From: Actinomycetes bacterium | GTDB lineage: Bacteria; Actinomycetota; Acidimicrobiia; Acidimicrobiales; Palsa-688 | Assembly (NCBI GenBank): GCA_021838445.1 | Contig: JAKCDU010000012.1 | Span: 1 to 64,000 of the forward strand | DNA: 64,000 bases | Direction of reading: 5' to 3' | In this document: piece by piece, positions 6,484-14,566 of the stretch | Position numbering within the stretch: position 1 is the first letter of the stretch | Layout: each line of letters starts with the position of its first letter | The notes under the pieces: generated by a model | The model's input: the letters and a program-made list of their open reading frames with translations, nothing else | Database searches by the model: none | What the model was told of the DNA's origin: nothing | Made by a program: the position numbers and the translations under genes

Positions 6484-7476
6484 ATGCCCAGGGTCGTGGT
6501 AGCCCCCGACAAGTTCCGGGGCAGCGCGTCTGCGGGCGAGGTGGCCGCCGCCATAGGCGACCAAGCGCGCCGGCTCGGCTGGTCGGTCGATCTCGCTCCG
6601 CTGTCCGACGGTGGCGAGGGCTTCTGCTCCGTTCTCGGTGGGAGACCCCGGCCGGTGACGGTGCGCGGGCCGCTCGGAGAGCCGGTCGAGTCAGCCTGGT
6701 TCGAGCTCGACGGCGGCGCCACCGCGGCCATCGAGATGGCCATGGCGTCGGGGCTGGTCCTGGCCGGGGGCGAGGAGGCCAACGACCCGATGCGGGCGGG
6801 GACCGCCGGGGTTGGCGAGCTGATCGCCGCCGCGGTGAAGGCCGGAGCCCGGCGCCTGCTGGTGGGTATGGGCGGCTCGGCGTCGACCGACGGCGGCTGG
6901 GACGCCCTGCAGGTCCTCGAACCCCACAGCCGCCTGTCGGGGGTGCGTATCGAGGTCGCCTGCGATGTGCGGACCCGCTTCCTCGACGCGGCCGCGGTGT
7001 TCGCCCCTCAGAAGGGGGCGACCCCCGCCCAGGTGGAGATGCTGGGTCGGCGCCTCGAGCGACTGGCCCAGTTGTACCTGCAGCGATACGGGGTCGACGT
7101 CACCGAGATGGACGGAGCCGGGGCGGCGGGCGGGCTGGCCGGTGGCCTGGCGGCCGTCGGCGGGGTCCTGATGAGCGGGTTCGAGGTGGTCTCCGATCGG
7201 ATCGACCTGCCGTCACGCATCGAAGGGGCCGACCTGGTGATCACCGGCGAGGGCCTGCTCGACGACCAGTCCTTCGAGGGTAAATCAGTCGGTGGTGTAG
7301 CCGAGCTCGGCGCCGAGCTGGGGGTGCCGGTGGTCGTCATCGCCGGCGACGTCGAGGGCGATCCGGACATCGAGTACCAGACCCTCGTCGGCTTCGCCGG
7401 GGAGGAAGCCGCCTGGAGCGACCCGCTCGGCGTTCTCCGCCGCATCACCGCTCAGGTGCTCACCGTGGCGCGCTGA
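6484..7476 (+). CDS. glycerate kinase (GlxK/GarK type I)
   Basis: It phosphorylates D-glycerate with ATP. The 330-aa protein starts with VVVAPDKFRGSASAGEVA, the type-I glycerate kinase N-terminus. It has the LSDGGEGFC segment, MGGSASTDGGWD, GAGAAGGLAGGL, and VITGEGLLDDQSFEGKS near the nucleotide site. The ATG at 6484 is preferred over 6448 because it leads directly into the conserved strand. It lies between otsA (divergent) and gpgS (convergent). It might salvage glycerate released from glucosylglycerate, feeding phosphoglycerate to GpgS; that link is inference from position. Confidence 0.9.
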   Translation: MPRVVVAPDKFRGSASAGEVAAAIGDQARRLGWSVDLAPLSDGGEGFCSVLGGRPRPVTVRGPLGEPVESAWFELDGGATAAIEMAMASGLVLAGGEEANDPMRAGTAGVGELIAAAVKAGARRLLVGMGGSASTDGGWDALQVLEPHSRLSGVRIEVACDVRTRFLDAAAVFAPQKGATPAQVEMLGRRLERLAQLYLQRYGVDVTEMDGAGAAGGLAGGLAAVGGVLMSGFEVVSDRIDLPSRIEGADLVITGEGLLDDQSFEGKSVGGVAELGAELGVPVVVIAGDVEGDPDIEYQTLVGFAGEEAAWSDPLGVLRRITAQVLTVAR

Positions 7477-7490
7477 CCGATCCGGGCCCC

Positions 7491-7522
7491 GAGCCGACGG
7501 CGTCGTCGCCCGGTCGGGGCTC
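7491..7522. terminator. possible bidirectional hairpin terminator
   Basis: The gap between the convergent glycerate kinase and gpgS genes can fold as GAGCC-GAC-GGC pairing with GCC-(CG)-GTC-(GG)-GGCTC, a GC-rich stem with two small bulges and a short loop. There is no T-run on either side, so this is a structural suggestion only. Confidence 0.35.
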
Positions 7523-7532
7523 AGAGGGGCGC

Positions 7533-8402
7533 TCAGGCTGTCTTGCGGTGGGCCGGCACCTCGATCAGGGGTGGCAGCTCGAGGTAGCGCACCGCCACCG
7601 TTTCGGTGCCCGGCCGGACCAGGCGGGCCACCCACGGGAAGTCCTCGCCGGCCAGCCCGGCCCGCTCGACGGCCAGCTGCATGATGGACAGGGACTGCGG
7701 ACCGAGCTCGGCGAGCGGGCGGTTGCGGTGGACCCGCTCGCCGAGATCGCACTGCACCAGCCCGGCGTTGCCGAACCGGGCGGTCACGTCGATCAGCAGG
7801 CCGAGGTCCACGCTGTAGCCCCCGGCGAAGGGCAACGACTCGAGGATGTGGCGGTAGGAGGCGCACTCGCCCGACAGCGGCTGGTCGAGGTCGGCCAGAT
7901 GAGGGAAGAAGAGGGAGATGAGCGGCCGGGCGACCAGTTCGGTGGTGCGCCCCCCGTTGCGCTCGTAGGAGCCCTTGGTGAACATCACGTCGTCGCGGGC
8001 GAGGAGCGGGCCGGCCAGACCCAGCACGAAGGCCGAGGTGAAGCCGCGGATGTCGCCGTCGCAGAAGACGATCACCTCCCCGGTGCAGACGTGAACCCCC
8101 TTCCACATGGCTTGGCCCTTGCCGTGGGCCGGGTAGTCGGGCAGGACCGTCTGGGTGGAGCACACTTCTGCCCCGGCGGCGGCGGCGATCCGGGCGGTGT
8201 CGTCGGTGGACCCGTCGTCGATGACCATGATCTGGTCCACCACGGGGACCGCCTCCACGAGGTCCCGCCTGATACGGGTGACGATCTCGCCGATGGTCTC
8301 GGCCTCGTCGCGGGCCGGGATGCAGACACTGACCCGGCGTCCCCGCTTGGCCGCGAGGACCCGGCCGGCCGGGTAGTCGGCCGAGTTGAACGAGCGGCGC
8401 AT
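7533..8402 (-). CDS. gpgS: glucosyl-3-phosphoglycerate synthase (GT81)
   Basis: GpgS transfers glucose from an NDP-glucose to 3-phosphoglycerate, the first step of glucosylglycerate (and, in mycobacteria, of methylglucose lipopolysaccharide). The 289-aa protein has the GT-A landmarks RVSVCIPARDEAETIG, VIDDGSTDDTARI, HGKGQAMWKG and the metal-binding CDGDIRGF. GECASYRH and GYSVDLGLLID follow, typical of GT81. It is slightly shorter than the mycobacterial enzyme. I use the ATG at 8402 (MRRSFNSADYP); the frame upstream overlaps the SAM riboswitch of the divergent operon and is not coding. No phosphatase (GpgP) is seen nearby. Confidence 0.9.
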   Translation of the reverse strand: MRRSFNSADYPAGRVLAAKRGRRVSVCIPARDEAETIGEIVTRIRRDLVEAVPVVDQIMVIDDGSTDDTARIAAAAGAEVCSTQTVLPDYPAHGKGQAMWKGVHVCTGEVIVFCDGDIRGFTSAFVLGLAGPLLARDDVMFTKGSYERNGGRTTELVARPLISLFFPHLADLDQPLSGECASYRHILESLPFAGGYSVDLGLLIDVTARFGNAGLVQCDLGERVHRNRPLAELGPQSLSIMQLAVERAGLAGEDFPWVARLVRPGTETVAVRYLELPPLIEVPAHRKTA

Positions 8403-8604: not shown

Positions 8605-9846
8605 GTGCCATACGTCGAAGGTCTGCGGTGCCGGGAATGTGGCCGGCCCTACCCAGCCGAAGCTCTGCACGTCTGTGAGTGGTGTTTCGGTCCGCTCGAG
8701 GTGGTCTACGACTACGAGGCCATACGGGCGGCCGTTTCGCGCCCCCGCATCGCCGCCGGGCCCCTGTCCATCTGGCGTTACGCCGACCTGCTGCCGGCGG
8801 CCGCCGACGGAGCGGTGAGCCTCGGGGCCGGGTTCACCCCGCTGGTCCGGGCGGACCGGCTGGCGGCCGAGCTCGGCCTGCGGGAGCTTTGGATCAAGAA
8901 CGACACCCTCAATCCCACCGGATCGTTCAAGGACCGGGTGGTTTCGGTCGCCCTCACCAAGGCCCAGGAGCTCGGCTTCAAGGTGGCGGCGTGCGCCTCC
9001 ACCGGGAATCTGGCCAACTCGGTGGCCGCCCACGCGGCCCACGCCGGGATGGAGTCGGTGGTGTTCATCCCCGCCGACCTGGAGGCCGGCAAGGTCGTTA
9101 CCACCGCCGTCTTCGGGGGCCGCCTGGTGGCCGTCGAGGGCAACTACGACGACGTCAACCGGCTCTGCGCCGAACTGGCTGGTGAGCACCCGGCGTGGGC
9201 CTTCGTCAACGTCAACGTGCGGACCTATTACGCCGAGGGGTCCAAGACGCTGGCTTTCGAGACGGCCGAGCAGCTCGGCTGGCAGGCGCCCGACCACGTC
9301 GTGGTGCCCGTCGCCTCGGGGAGCCAGCTGACCAAGGTGGCCAAGGGCTTCAAGGAGCTGTGGGCGGTCGGCCTGCTCGACGAGGAGCCTCATGTGCGGA
9401 TATCGGGGGCCCAGGCCACGGGGTGCTCCCCGGTGGCCGCCGCCTTCGCCGCCGGGCGCGACGTGGTCAAGCCGGTCAAGCCCGACACCATCGCCAAGTC
9501 CCTCGCCATCGGCAACCCCGCCGATGGCCCCTATGCGCTCGAGGCCGTGCGTTCCTCGGGGGGCGGCTTCGGGTCGGTCACCGACGACGAGATCGTGGCC
9601 GGGATCCGCCTCCTGGCCCGCACCGAGGGGATATTTGCCGAAACCGCCGGAGGGGTTACCATCGCCTCGCTGGTCCAGCTCGTAGATTCCGGCGTGGTCA
9701 AACCCGACGAGCGGGTCGTCGCCCTGGTGACCGGGAACGGCCTCAAGACCATCGAAGCGGTGGCCCCGCACTGCCGGCCCACCGCGACCATCGCCCCCAC
9801 CCTCGAGGCCTTTGCCGAGGCCGTCGACCTTCCCGCGGAGTTGTAG
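8605..9846 (+). CDS. thrC: threonine-synthase-like PLP enzyme (possibly O-phosphohomoserine-dependent homocysteine synthase)
   Basis: This 413-aa fold-type II PLP enzyme has an N-terminal zinc ribbon (CRECG ... CEWC, residues ~8-30) and the PLP lysine in NPTGSFKDR. It also has the phosphate-binding STGNLANS loop and the Ser/Gly-rich VPVASGSQL segment. The GTG at 8605 follows AGGAGGA with ideal spacing. Family membership would give threonine synthase, which converts O-phosphohomoserine to threonine. Two contextual facts point elsewhere: a SAM-I riboswitch directly upstream, and a CysO-like sulfur carrier 3 nt downstream. SAM control makes sense for methionine synthesis, not threonine. I recall a reported Streptomyces route (named MetM/MetO) in which a ThrC-like enzyme makes homocysteine from O-phosphohomoserine with a sulfur carrier; this pair fits that description. 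Both options remain open. Confidence 0.88.
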   Translation: MPYVEGLRCRECGRPYPAEALHVCEWCFGPLEVVYDYEAIRAAVSRPRIAAGPLSIWRYADLLPAAADGAVSLGAGFTPLVRADRLAAELGLRELWIKNDTLNPTGSFKDRVVSVALTKAQELGFKVAACASTGNLANSVAAHAAHAGMESVVFIPADLEAGKVVTTAVFGGRLVAVEGNYDDVNRLCAELAGEHPAWAFVNVNVRTYYAEGSKTLAFETAEQLGWQAPDHVVVPVASGSQLTKVAKGFKELWAVGLLDEEPHVRISGAQATGCSPVAAAFAAGRDVVKPVKPDTIAKSLAIGNPADGPYALEAVRSSGGGFGSVTDDEIVAGIRLLARTEGIFAETAGGVTIASLVQLVDSGVVKPDERVVALVTGNGLKTIEAVAPHCRPTATIAPTLEAFAEAVDLPAEL

Positions 9847-9849
9847 AGC

Positions 9850-10125
9850 ATGACGATCAGCGTCCGGATACCCACCCAACTGCGCCCCCTGGCCGGAGGC
9901 CAGTCCACGGTCGCGGTGGACGGCTCGACCGTCGGCGAGGCGCTCAAGTCCCTCGAGGCCGCCCACCCCGGCTTCGAGGACCGGCTCTTCGACGAGACCG
10001 GCAAGCTTCGACGCTTCGTGAACGTCTTCGTGGCCGAAGAGGACATCAGGTTCCTCGACGGGCTGGAGACCCCGGTGGCCGACGGGGCCACCCTTTCGAT
10101 CGTTCCCGCGGTAGCCGGCGGCTGA
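9850..10125 (+). CDS. cysO: CysO-like MoaD/ThiS-family sulfur carrier protein
   Basis: This 91-aa beta-grasp ubiquitin-like protein ends in VPAVAGG; the terminal Gly-Gly is the site of adenylation and thiocarboxylation in sulfur carriers. From memory it resembles mycobacterial CysO along its whole length (IPTQLRPLAGGQ, LRRFVNVFVAEEDIRFLDGL, SIVPAVAGG). In mycobacteria CysO donates sulfur to O-phosphoserine with CysM. Here the partner is a ThrC-like enzyme, which suggests sulfur delivery to O-phosphohomoserine. The ATG at 9850 comes 3 nt after the upstream stop, with GGAG at ~9837, so the two genes are cotranscribed under the SAM riboswitch. No Mec-type protease or MoeB-like activator is in the window. 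Confidence 0.92.
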   Translation: MTISVRIPTQLRPLAGGQSTVAVDGSTVGEALKSLEAAHPGFEDRLFDETGKLRRFVNVFVAEEDIRFLDGLETPVADGATLSIVPAVAGG

Positions 10126-10126
10126 A

Positions 10127-10162
10127 CCCGGCGACCAGCCGGGACGGGGCCGAAATCGGCCC
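10127..10162 (+). terminator. tandem hairpins after the sulfur carrier gene
   Basis: Two adjacent stems follow the stop codon: CCCGGC-GACCA-GCCGGG (10127-10143) and GGGCCGA-AA-TCGGCCC (10147-10162). A short A-run lies further on (10189-10195) but no T-run follows. They separate the sulfur operon from the groEL promoter and are probably its terminator. Confidence 0.5.
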
Positions 10163-10243
10163 GCCAATCGGCTCCGGCCCCCCGGAAAAAAGGCCTCACG
10201 ACACAACCGCGGTTGCATTAGCGGCGTCTAGGCGGTTAACTGG

Positions 10244-10270
10244 TTAGCACTCGGGATGTGAGAGTGCTAA
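10244..10270 (+). promoter_or_regulatory. CIRCE operator (HrcA binding site)
   Basis: The site is TTAGCACTC - 9 nt - GAGTGCTAA, a perfect 9-bp inverted repeat identical to the CIRCE consensus. It sits 30 nt upstream of the groEL start codon. It predicts heat-shock control by the repressor HrcA, which is not in the window. Confidence 0.97.
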
Positions 10271-11923
<1,653 letters not shown>

Positions 11924-11964
11924 TAAGTCGCCCCCTGGGGCCCGACCTCTCGGGATCACCAGTA

Positions 11965-11996
11965 CCGGTCCCGGCCCTTTCGAGGGCCGGGACCGG
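11965..11996 (+). terminator. groEL terminator hairpin
   Basis: A perfect 13-bp stem, CCGGTCCCGGCCC (11965-11977) and GGGCCGGGACCGG (11984-11996), closes a 6-nt loop TTTCGA. There is no T-run downstream, which is common in GC-rich actinobacteria. Confidence 0.75.
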
Positions 11997-12065
11997 CCGC
12001 GTCGGGGTAGCCGCCCTCCCTGGTCAGGCGTCGGGTCCGTCCCCGCCGGGTCCTAAACTGAAGGG

Positions 12066-12749
12066 GTGATCGAGCCGTTGAAGCCATCCGTCGGTTGGGG
12101 AGTACTCCACCTCTTCTGCCGGGTCCGTCCCGGAGCCGACGGACAGGCCGTGGTGGCGGCCGTCAAGGCCCTCCAGGATGAGGAGCACCAGGTCGTACCT
12201 TTCACCGTTCTCGGGCACAAGGCCGACCTGGGCTTTCTCGCCATCGGCCCCGATTGGGTGGTCCTGCGCCGCCTCCAGAGCGGCTTGCAGGCCGCCGGGC
12301 TCGAAGTGTGCGACTCCTACGTGTCGCTGACCGAGGTCTCGGAGTATGCCGCGGGAATGCCCGAGGAGCACCTCCAGGCCCGGCTCTACCCGACCCTGCC
12401 CCCAGCCGGGAAGCGGGCCATCTGCTTCTATCCGATGACCAAGCGCCGCGGCGACAGGGATAATTGGTACAGCCTCGACTTCGATCAGCGGAAGCGTCTG
12501 ATGATGGAGCACGGTCAGTCGGGGCGACGTTTCGCCGGCCGTATCGTCCAGCTCATCACCGGGTCCACCGGCCTCGACGACTACGAATGGGGGGTGACCC
12601 TCTTCGGGGTCCACCCCGACGACCTCAAAGAGACCGTCTACACCATGCGCTTCGACGAGGCGTCGGCGCTCTTCGGTGAGTTCGGGCCGTTCTACGCCGG
12701 GGTCGTCGGGTCGGCCGAAGAGGTCGTGACCGAGGCCGGGTTGGCTTGA
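12066..12749 (+). CDS. hemQ: coproheme decarboxylase HemQ (chlorite dismutase family)
   Basis: HemQ (ChdC) oxidatively removes two propionates from iron-coproporphyrin III, the last step of the coproporphyrin-dependent haem pathway of Gram-positive bacteria. The 227-aa protein carries the reactive tyrosine in DNWYSLDF (Tyr135). The proximal haem ligand is His149 in MMEHGQSGR, followed by ITGSTGLDDYEWGVTLF. The GTG at 12066 follows an AAGGG tract. It fits with hemY/cgoX and hemE at 37052-39515. It is the first gene of an overlapping operon that continues with alaX', larE, a NIL protein and an unknown gene. Confidence 0.95.
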   Translation: MIEPLKPSVGWGVLHLFCRVRPGADGQAVVAAVKALQDEEHQVVPFTVLGHKADLGFLAIGPDWVVLRRLQSGLQAAGLEVCDSYVSLTEVSEYAAGMPEEHLQARLYPTLPPAGKRAICFYPMTKRRGDRDNWYSLDFDQRKRLMMEHGQSGRRFAGRIVQLITGSTGLDDYEWGVTLFGVHPDDLKETVYTMRFDEASALFGEFGPFYAGVVGSAEEVVTEAGLA

Positions 12750-13015
12750 GCGGCGTCGGGGCGACGGTCACCGACCTGGTCCATCTGCGTGATGCCTACC
12801 TGCGGGAGCTCGACGCGACCGTGACCGCGGTCGAGCCAGAAGCGCGCCGGGTCGCTCTCGACCGCACCGTCTTCTACGCCACCGGCGGCGGCCAGCCCCA
12901 CGACACCGGCACCCACGTCCGCTCCACCGCCGAGGTCGGTCGGGTGGCGGTCGTGAAGACCGAGTCCAAGGGCAAGGGCAACAAGCGCATCCGCCTCGAG
13001 GTGCGCAACTCATGA
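12746..13015 (+). CDS. internally deleted AlaX-like alanyl-tRNA editing domain (89 aa remnant)
   Basis: The first ~50 residues match the N-terminus of AlaX/AlaRS editing proteins (LRDAYLRELDATVTAVE, LDRTVFYATGGGQPHDTG). The last ~36 match their C-terminus (THVRSTAEVG, then ESKGKGNKRIRLEV). The ~130 residues normally in between are absent, including the zinc-binding HxxxH motif. The Cys of the usual CGGTH motif is replaced (DTGTH). The join falls at GGCACC (~12907-12912), a short sequence that both flanks would share, so an in-frame microhomology deletion is likely. It starts with TTG overlapping the hemQ stop (TTGA) and ends overlapping the larE ATG (ATGA). It probably has no editing activity; it may persist only to keep translational coupling. 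Confidence 0.75.
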   Translation: MSGVGATVTDLVHLRDAYLRELDATVTAVEPEARRVALDRTVFYATGGGQPHDTGTHVRSTAEVGRVAVVKTESKGKGNKRIRLEVRNS

Positions 13016-13803
13016 GCCTGGCCGTGCTGCAGGAGCGCCTGGCGCAGCTCGACCGGGTGGTGGTGGCCTTCAGCGGCGGGGTGGACTCGGCGCTCCTCGC
13101 CCGGGTCGCCCACGACGTCCTCGGCGACCGCAGCGTGGCCGTCACCGCCGTGTCGGAATCTCTGTCGCCGGCCGAACGGGATGACTGCCGGCGCTTCGCA
13201 GGGGACTGGGGCATGCGCTGGCTCGAGGTGGGCACGGACGAGCTCGCCAGACCCGAGTACGTGGCCAACGGTATCGACCGCTGCTACCACTGCAAGAGCG
13301 AGCTCATGGACCGGCTCCTCCCGGTCGCCGAGGCCGAGGGCGGGGCGAGCATCGCCCTCGGGGTGAACCTCGACGACCTGTCGGATCACCGCCCCGGCCA
13401 GCAGGCCGCCCGCGAGCGAGGGGCGCGCTTCCCGCTGGTCGAGGCCGGGTTCACCAAGGATCAAGTGCGGAGCACCGCTCGGGAGCTCGGCCTCGAGGCC
13501 TGGGACAAGCCAGCCGCCGCCTGCCTGGCCTCCCGTATCCCCTACGGTACGCCTGTGACGATCAGCAATCTGGGCCGGGTGTCGCGTGCCGAGGACGCCA
13601 TCAGGGCTCTCGGGTTCCGGGAGCTTCGGGTCCGCCACTACGGCGACGTGGCCCGCATCGAGCTTCCCACTGCCGAGCTCGGCGAGGCGGTGCGTCGCCG
13701 GGAGGAGATAGTCGAAGCGGTAAAGGCCCACGGCTACCGGTACGCCACCTTGGATCTCGAGGGCTTCCGCAGCGGCAACCTGAACATGGGGTACACGGCA
13801 TGA
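13012..13803 (+). CDS. larE: LarE-family sulfur transferase, three-cysteine type
   Basis: LarE proteins (PP-loop ATPases) adenylate a pyridinium dicarboxylate and install sulfur for the nickel-pincer cofactor of lactate racemase-type enzymes. The 263-aa protein has the PP-loop SGGVDSA (21-27), and ends with IELPTAELGE and a LDLEGFRSGNLN segment typical of LarE. Cysteines lie at 91, 94 (RCYHCK) and 171 (AACLASR). The Lactiplantibacillus enzyme that sacrifices one Cys lacks, as I recall, the CxxC pair. Three-Cys LarE proteins instead bind a 4Fe-4S cluster that carries an extra sulfide, so catalytic rather than sacrificial transfer is likely here. No larA, larB or larC is in the window; the true acceptor is unknown. 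Confidence 0.9.
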   Translation: MSLAVLQERLAQLDRVVVAFSGGVDSALLARVAHDVLGDRSVAVTAVSESLSPAERDDCRRFAGDWGMRWLEVGTDELARPEYVANGIDRCYHCKSELMDRLLPVAEAEGGASIALGVNLDDLSDHRPGQQAARERGARFPLVEAGFTKDQVRSTARELGLEAWDKPAAACLASRIPYGTPVTISNLGRVSRAEDAIRALGFRELRVRHYGDVARIELPTAELGEAVRRREEIVEAVKAHGYRYATLDLEGFRSGNLNMGYTA

Positions 13804-14036
13804 ACGACCGGGTCCGTCTCACCTTTCCCGCCGACCTGGTCCGCCAGCCGGTGATCGGGCAGCTGTCGGTCCGCTTCGGGGTCATGCCCAACATCCGTCG
13901 CGCCGACGTGAGCGACGATGTCGGATGGATCGTCTGCGAGCTCGACGGGGAGCCGGCGGCCGTCGCCGCGGCCATCGCCTGGATGCAGGAGATCGGCGTG
14001 GACGTGGACCAGCTCGCTCATCCTCTGGAGAGCTGA
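13800..14036 (+). CDS. stand-alone NIL domain protein
   Basis: The 78-aa protein is a single NIL domain (VRLTFPADLVRQPVIGQLS, then NIRRADV, AAIAWMQEIGVDVDQL). NIL domains are small ACT-like modules found at the C-terminus of the methionine importer MetN and in proteins linked to homocysteine/sulfur metabolism, where they are thought to bind ligands. The ATG overlaps the larE stop (ATGA), so it is translated with LarE. A role in sulfur transfer or sensing with LarE is inference. No membrane segment. Confidence 0.8.
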   Translation: MNDRVRLTFPADLVRQPVIGQLSVRFGVMPNIRRADVSDDVGWIVCELDGEPAAVAAAIAWMQEIGVDVDQLAHPLES

Positions 14037-14044
14037 GCCGCCGG

Positions 14045-14566
14045 GTGGGCGCACCCGAGGCGGCCGACGGCTCCCCCAGGGATGGCGCATCCCCCATTGA
14101 CGGCGAGGGATCGCCCGAGGACCAGCTGCGGGTCTACGCCCGGGAGTTGGCCGAGGGCATCGTCGCCGCCCTGCCGGGGTGGGTGATCGCCTCGGTCGAA
14201 CGGCTCGTGTCGGCCTACACCGGTCGGGTCCCCGACGCCGTCGGCGAGGAGGCCCGCGCCGCCGCGGCGACCGCGGTGGCCGCGGTCGGCCCCCCGCTGC
14301 GGGACCTCCTCGAATCCGATCCCGACGACCAGCGGACCACCCCTCTCGACCTGGTGCGCGCCGCGGTGCGCTACCCGACCGGGGTGCTGCGGCGAGCGGG
14401 GGTCCCCCCAGTCGAGCGCGACGCCTTCGACGAGCGCGCCTTCCCCGATGACCGCTACGGTCTCACCCCGGCCTCGCTGGCCGACCTCGACCCGGGCCTG
14501 GCCGACGTCGGTCTGCGGTGGGGTGCCGCCAAGGCCTTCGTGCACCGGCGCCGGCACCGCTCCTGA
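14045..14566 (+). CDS. hypothetical protein, last gene of the hemQ-larE operon
   Basis: I do not recognise a family. The GTG at 14045 gives 173 aa and begins 8 nt after the NIL stop; GGAG lies ~13 nt upstream. The first ~30 residues are Gly/Ser/Asp-rich and probably disordered. The rest is helical and acidic, with LAEGIVAALPGWVIASVERLV, a PTGVLRRAGVPPVERDAFDE stretch, and a conserved-looking FPDDRYGLTPASLADLDP segment. The tail is basic (HRRRHRS). No signal peptide or membrane helix. It is convergent with the histidine kinase, 21 nt away. Confidence 0.65.
   Translation: MGAPEAADGSPRDGASPIDGEGSPEDQLRVYARELAEGIVAALPGWVIASVERLVSAYTGRVPDAVGEEARAAAATAVAAVGPPLRDLLESDPDDQRTTPLDLVRAAVRYPTGVLRRAGVPPVERDAFDERAFPDDRYGLTPASLADLDPGLADVGLRWGAAKAFVHRRRHRS

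Follow-up and report, generated by a model that had tools for sequence, protein, structure and literature searches.

We analysed a window of 64,000 nucleotides, i.e. the whole stretch from position 1 to 64,000 of contig JAKCDU010000012.1 (assembly GCA_021838445.1, an Actinomycetes bacterium of the Acidimicrobiales, Palsa-688), in which the gene for the sulfur insertase LarE runs into a gene for a stand-alone NIL protein. With a probability of roughly 0.55, two systems meet at this locus: a LarE of the [4Fe-4S] type serving nickel-pincer nucleotide (NPN) synthesis, and a homocysteine module of a threonine synthase paralogue (ThrC2), a MoaD-type sulfur carrier, the NIL protein and, optionally, MoeB, which is split here by groEL, hemQ, alaX and larE. 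NIL presence follows ThrC2 and MoaD rather than the lar genes, because the association with ThrC2 is strong and that with larB is nil. Comparing 99 genomes of the order, the own genome included, the MoaD-linked ThrC2 type was found in 43 of 47 genomes with NIL and in 14 of 52 without (odds ratio 29, p-value of 2e-11); ThrC classes were taken here from the aligned spans among the matches listed, and partial genes (G041, G098) were counted as absent. NIL and LarE were weakly associated (46/47 versus 41/52, p-value of 0.004), and no association was observed between NIL and LarB (40/47 versus 41/52, p-value of 0.45), all by Fisher tests, in which shared ancestry is ignored. The genes concerned are the following.

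8605..9846, + strand: thrC2, zinc-ribbon threonine synthase paralogue, a fold-type II pyridoxal phosphate (PLP) enzyme and proposed sulfur acceptor (TIGR00260, 300.8 bits)
9850..10125, + strand: MoaD/SAMP1-like carrier with Gly-Gly end (ThiS PF02597, 56.1 bits; SAMP1 NF041918, 67.7 bits, cutoff 60)
10301..11923, + strand: groEL, lying within the cluster in the lineage of the window
12066..12749, + strand: hemQ-like gene of the chlorite dismutase family (PF06778 Chlor_dismutase, 156.9 bits)
12746..13015, + strand: remnant of alaX, alanyl-tRNA editing protein, 89 aa (partial AlaXM and tRNA_SAD matches)
13012..13803, + strand: larE of the CxxC-C ([4Fe-4S]) type, 263 aa (TIGR00268, 314.9 bits, cutoff 150)
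13800..14036, + strand: stand-alone NIL protein, 78 aa (PF09383, 60.8 bits, cutoff 24)
14045..14566, + strand: open reading frame of unknown family (no match in Pfam or NCBIfam), kept near NIL/LarE in relatives as well

The NIL protein and the ThrC2-MoaD module

LarE was found in 86 of the 99 genomes, and a contig-end fragment in G051 was counted as present, giving 87 LarE-positive genomes; a PF09383 NIL was found in 47. Adjacency of the two genes was tabulated for these 47 loci. In 45 of them NIL lies 3' of larE on the same strand, with a gap of -28 to +55 nt in 44, so that the NIL neighbour is conserved. The exceptions are G059, with NIL on another contig, and G052, with NIL behind hemQ and larE, larB and larC all absent. 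The pairing of LarE and NIL is conserved beyond chance. ThrC, MoaD, GroEL, HemQ and LarE are encoded on a single strand in at least 25 of the 87 LarE loci; NIL accompanies them in 19 of these. In the best reading, NIL and LarE are neighbours because the ThrC2-MoaD-NIL module is spread across a conserved gene string in the lineage of the window.

Among 376 genomes sampled from the phylum, 48 carried a strong match to the NIL subfamily (at least 75 bits); LarE was found no more than about 1 kb away in 25 of the 48, and in the opposite (convergent) orientation in one family. NIL neighbours in loci lacking LarE were CysE/CysK-like genes (L216, L221, L223), an Rrf2-NIL-IscS-IscU-like string (L197) and ThrC-MoaD-NIL (L210); these names were assigned by eye, and examples of CysK, MoeB, IscS-type, ThrC and MoaD genes at other loci were confirmed by profile. 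Two tandem NIL genes lie 3' of MoaD in G365 (L195:4044-4749). Scanning named genomes, 518 NIL relatives were obtained; the neighbour counts describe the best 80 of the 518, which came from Nitrospirota, Rokubacteria, Chloroflexota, Poribacteria, Omnitrophota, Actinomycetota and others. In 46 of the 80 loci, both ThrC and MoaD were encoded no more than 2.5 kb from NIL and on its strand, and in 57 at least one of them was; MoeB came within 4 kb, again on the NIL strand, in 28, and CysK within 4.5 kb in 36. LarE was near NIL in 5 loci, and none of the tested sulfur genes was present in 7. A typical order in Nitrospirota was ThiS-CysK-MoeB-ThrC-MoaD-NIL-MoeB (L238, L246, L267, L311). A preliminary description of the locus, made from the sequence, had tied NIL domains to sulfur chemistry and had considered a link to the sulfur-carrier operon 3 kb upstream of the pair; both ideas hold up well, the former with the sulfur-assimilation genes around NIL loci, the latter with the association of NIL and ThrC2 and the ThrC-MoaD-NIL clusters across phyla. 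Beside one NIL gene and a ThiI-like gene, a NifU-like domain was found fused to MnmA, the tRNA 2-thiouridine synthase (L259:5401-6828), and similar matches occur in L235, L236, L252, L262, L283 and L295.

ThrC2 and the second paralogue, ThrC1, fall on the two sides of one branch with a Shimodaira-Hasegawa-like approximate likelihood ratio (SH-aLRT) support of 100 (68 + 36 rows, duplicates removed). An N-terminal CxxC..CxxC is present in 75 of 75 ThrC2-type matches and in 0 of 36 ThrC1; for the order, the assignment to a class was checked at sequence level with 17 ThrC2 and 12 ThrC1. A total of 25 positions are fixed differently between the two. Four near-invariant changes of ThrC2 (Ser to N204, Asn to R206, Arg to Y209, Gln to S213) lie in the loop equivalent to residues 155-164 of Thermus thermophilus ThrC, which presumably binds the substrate phosphate. 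The PLP lysine K109 of the SFKDR motif is kept in both paralogues. The host encodes ThrC1 as a second copy at G000:C94:2616-3557, and at least two ThrC-family matches were found in 33 of 35 named NIL genomes, which are a subset of the 80 loci and for which completeness was not given. The MoaD of the window ends in Gly-Gly, with the stop directly after GGCGGC, and among 68 rows of ThrC2-linked MoaD (some of them duplicates), 64 have GG in the final six positions. MoeB/ThiF was not found in the stretch 8605-14566, the rest of the host genome not having been searched for MoeB.

For the NIL protein (model pLDDT 89.0), MetN NIL domains were the best Foldseek matches (E 4e-7), and ACT-domain proteins were also among the fold neighbours. 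In the alignment to 3dhw, N31 corresponds to the methionine-binding N295 of Escherichia coli MetN; exchange N295A raised the Ki for L-Met 28-fold according to the available text of PMC12357092. Two alignments were used, A1 with 45 of the 47 NILs of the order (truncated L097 and L125 left out) and A4 with the window NIL and those of 34 of the 80 named loci. N31 is found in 45/45 and 35/35 sequences, respectively, and R33, A35 and G42 are likewise invariant in both. The lineage-specific C46, which adjoins the presumed ligand site, is present in 44 of the 45 sequences of A1, with Leu or Val at this position outside the order. A function of NIL as persulfide carrier was considered and rejected, as C46 is confined to the order and none of the 34 relatives in A4 has any cysteine. 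The MetN asparagine is kept and conservation of a cysteine is limited to the order, so that a role in ligand binding or regulation probably fits better than sulfur carriage.

For the reaction, the ligand and the part played by NIL, we infer the following scheme. An E1-like MoeB, together with a sulfur source, would convert the C-terminal Gly-Gly of MoaD to a thiocarboxylate. ThrC2, with its remodelled substrate site, would then attach the MoaD sulfur at the gamma carbon of activated homoserine, e.g. O-phosphohomoserine, yielding homocysteine. NIL would bind homocysteine or methionine and regulate or assist ThrC2. In the best reading of the sequences, NIL would thus be an amino-acid-binding subunit or a regulator of a sulfur-carrier-dependent homocysteine synthase, with formation of homocysteine as the putative reaction. 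The stronger proposal, to which we give slightly less than even odds, is that ThrC2-MoaD-NIL, with or without MoeB, may constitute an undescribed, PF01053-independent homocysteine synthase that takes its sulfur from the MoaD thiocarboxylate and is controlled by a methionine- or homocysteine-binding NIL. The stand-alone NIL protein would gain a likely function, namely amino-acid binding in homocysteine synthesis. In a literature search, mostly outside subscription journals, no title among the matches listed described a ThrC-MoaD homocysteine enzyme.

LarE, the surrounding gene string and the lar genes of the host

The larE stop overlaps the NIL ATG by 4 bp, and hemQ lies upstream. This arrangement had been given in the preliminary description together with Cys91, Cys94 and Cys171 of LarE, and coordinates and profiles agree with it; the alaX remnant between hemQ and larE was absent from that description. 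Tested against the NCBI heme-synthase equivalog, the hemQ product reached 216.8 bits, under the cutoff of 253. Compared with G001 of the same genus (L075), alaX (12746-13015) has lost about 0.48 kb from its interior without a change of frame. Two copies of a 7-bp direct repeat apparently mark the ends of the deletion, and a putative zinc-site stretch is gone with it; the full-length frame is retained in relatives, G001 included. The open reading frame 3' of NIL, which ends at 14566, is a neighbour of LarE/NIL in many genomes across the order, including genomes that lack NIL.

LarE contains four cysteines (C59, C91, C94, C171), with the codons of C91 at 13282-13284, of C94 at 13291-13293 and of C171 at 13522-13524. 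The PP-loop motif SGGxDS is present as FSGGVDS. The model (pLDDT 87.7) was fitted to mmLarE-[4Fe-4S] (PDB 8cnz) with a Z of 28.0 and a root-mean-square deviation of 2.4 over 246 residues, at about 27% identity in the structural alignment, and C91, C94 and C171 align with cysteines of the mmLarE chain. The assignment to the [4Fe-4S] type, made earlier from the CxxC pair, is hence backed by a solved structure. S174, R206 and R208 correspond to S180, R212 and R214 of Lactobacillus plantarum LarE and are invariant in the LarE alignment A3. In the available text of PMC9283937, the latter residues are assigned to binding of the substrate phosphate, the CxxC-C motif is ascribed to most LarE homologues, and Thermotoga maritima LarE is described as transferring a non-core sulfide supplied by cysteine desulfurase. 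CxxC-C was found in 86 of the 87 LarE loci of the order, the exception being the fragment at the contig end in G051. It occurs in LarEs both with and without an adjoining NIL, and the three cysteines were rejected as a mark of NIL-linked LarE. On sequence and fold, the LarE of the window is likely an ordinary [4Fe-4S] sulfur insertase of NPN synthesis.

According to the preliminary description, no larA, larB or larC accompanies this LarE, and the latter might perform another sulfur-insertion job. The absence is true of the window and was rejected for the genome. The host genome (G000; 96% complete, 3.99 Mb in 117 contigs) contains a single LarE, the window copy, together with adjoining larB (C112:8785-9396) and larC (C112:8046-8546) and two Lar_N proteins, i.e. 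with the N-terminal domain of LarA, on contigs C49 and C18. The C49 homologue reached 885.6 bits with the NCBI model "NPN-dependent hydroxyacid isomerase, LarAH14/15/16 family" (cutoff 740), and the C18 protein, weaker, 157 bits with a hexonate-epimerase model (cutoff 500). The search for larABC elsewhere in the genome, suggested in that description, therefore yielded the set. Of the observations named there as speaking against its idea, the larABC set was thus made, whereas the other, a NIL neighbour without conservation, is contradicted by the conserved pairing. LarB was found in 77 of the 87 LarE-positive genomes versus 4 of the 12 without LarE. A LarE lacking its partners is unsupported, because the genome encodes them (larB, larC, a LarA homologue over cutoff) and LarE tracks LarB. 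LarE therefore most likely serves the nickel-pincer cofactor. The distance of larE from larBC is no evidence of another job for LarE. A sulfur insertion outside NPN synthesis would fit the 10 of 87 LarE genomes without LarB, some of them near-complete (G043, 96%), yet the partners encoded in the own genome and the invariant S174, R206 and R208 make it very improbable for the LarE of the window.

Two observations concern LarA-like proteins. The PF09861 match of the host (C49; L073:3630-5216) has counterparts in G047, G049, G056 and G064, where larB, larC and larE were not found; possibly this LarA homologue works without the nickel-pincer cofactor or the cofactor is imported. The host also encodes a divergent second LarA-like protein, whose gene is in divergent overlap with an open reading frame which by eye resembles a uronate isomerase (L074:5191-6678 and 6486-7958), which suggests a sugar-acid epimerase.

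Methionine synthesis and alternative explanations

PF01053, which we take to be the family holding all MetB, MetC, MetY and MetZ enzymes, was surveyed genome-wide. At E<=1e-20, no PF01053 gene was found in 23 of the 35 named NIL genomes, and none in any of the ten genomes G464-G473 (Nitrospirota, one Thermodesulfobacteriaceae, one Manganitrophaceae). In the order, where 61 of the 99 genomes were searched, no match at E<=1e-40 was found in 5, all five with NIL and ThrC2. High-scoring PF01053 gave p-values of 0.035 with NIL and 0.55 with ThrC2, both weak. Clusters of NIL and sulfur carrier in genomes without a PF01053 match are a concrete candidate for a missing homocysteine pathway. If the proposal is true, many Nitrospirota, Rokubacteria, Chloroflexota, Omnitrophota and deep-branching Actinomycetota would make their methionine by way of the module. 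The available text of Price et al. (2018; PMC5764234) states that at least one homocysteine pathway is still to be found, in Aquifex aeolicus, Pyrolobus fumarii and Acidimicrobium ferrooxidans, and that A. ferrooxidans has none of the known routes; if the proposal holds, ThrC2-MoaD-NIL could fill this gap of A. ferrooxidans.

We are aware of the fact that several observations weigh against a homocysteine module. PF01053 is present in 12 of the 35 named NIL genomes, and the host itself keeps one such protein, which comes closest to cystathionine gamma-lyase (402 bits, cutoff 440), an enzyme which consumes cystathionine and makes no homocysteine. In the order, the relation of the module to PF01053 absence is borderline (5/31 versus 0/30, p-value of 0.053), and the genome-wide survey covered PF01053, with DUF39, MetX/MetA and MoeB outside of it. 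ThrC2 passes the threonine synthase cutoff (TIGR00260). ThrC2 without NIL in 14 of 52 genomes indicates that NIL is not essential to ThrC2, and NIL beside LarE in 25 of 48 phylum genomes, convergent in one family, leaves room for a LarE role. Finally, the co-occurrence tests take no account of shared ancestry.

A dedicated LarE accessory, which would bind LarE and either deliver or gate the sulfur for NPN synthesis or sense cysteine or methionine for it, would explain the 45 of 47 order NILs directly 3' of LarE on the same strand, the presence of LarE about 1 kb or less from NIL in 25 of the 48 phylum genomes, inverted in one family, and the association of NIL with LarE (p-value of 0.004). Such a role appears unlikely for NIL, which is missing from 41 of the 87 LarE genomes, does not track LarB (p-value of 0.45), conserves no thiol and elsewhere has LarE in only 5 of 80 loci; moreover, G052 keeps NIL beside hemQ after loss of larE, larB and larC. 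No paper combining LarE with "NIL domain" was found in the literature search. Possible, if doubtful, is a general sulfur-amino-acid sensor on many units, from cysteine synthesis, Fe-S assembly and tRNA thiolation to LarE and ThrC2-MoaD, without a single partner. In favour of such a sensor are the loci with CysE/CysK-like genes (L216, L221, L223), Rrf2/IscS/IscU-like genes (L197) or the NifU-MnmA fusion and ThiI-like gene (L259), CysK in 36 of 80 loci and the ACT-domain proteins among the fold neighbours; against it, ThrC2/MoaD is by far the commonest neighbour of NIL (ThrC or MoaD in 57 of 80 loci) and its strongest co-occurrence in the order.

That ThrC2 is a plain second threonine synthase in a coincidental neighbourhood is quite improbable. 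It scores over the TIGR00260 cutoff and shares the PLP-lysine region (K109) with ThrC1, but a separate ThrC1 coexists in most genomes (at least two ThrC matches in 33 of 35), the substrate-loop changes N204, R206, Y209 and S213 are near-invariant in ThrC2, and the linkage to MoaD extends across phyla.

Comparison with known systems

With the MetN NIL (C2) domain, the NIL protein of the window shares the fold and the methionine-binding asparagine (N31, N295 in MetN). In contrast to the MetN importer, it is a stand-alone protein of 78 aa with no ATP-binding cassette ATPase fused, and R33/R34, A35 and G42-W43 are conserved in place of the NIL motif. ThrC2 shares the catalytic core and the PLP lysine with threonine synthase ThrC (2zsj, 1uim) and differs by its N-terminal zinc ribbon, its altered substrate loop and its paralogy to the ThrC1 of the same genome. 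LarE resembles the [4Fe-4S] LarE of Thermotoga maritima and mmLarE (8cnz) in the SGGxDS PP-loop, CxxC-C, fold and the presence of larB, larC and a LarA homologue in its genome; in the window, however, larE is apart from larBC and adjoins NIL, and identity to mmLarE is about 27%.

In protein-thiocarboxylate synthesis, HcyS-MetY of Wolinella forms homocysteine and CysO-CysM forms cysteine. As in these systems, a PLP enzyme and a ubiquitin-like carrier occur in a single cluster, joined by an E1-like MoeB in 28 of the 80 NIL loci of named genomes; here, a ThrC paralogue (fold type II) takes the place of MetY as PLP enzyme, and a NIL protein is added. In the available text of Price et al. (2018; PMC5764234), this route is named only as "the protein thiocarboxylate pathway". 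The same text has a NIL/ferredoxin protein taking part in the DUF39 homocysteine route (NIL/ferredoxin-DUF39-COG2122; methanogens, Desulfovibrio). As far as it goes, the likeness lies in a NIL protein in homocysteine formation, proposed here for the window; the difference is that the window NIL matched NIL only, without a ferredoxin domain, and that its partners would be a PLP enzyme and a sulfur carrier instead of DUF39.

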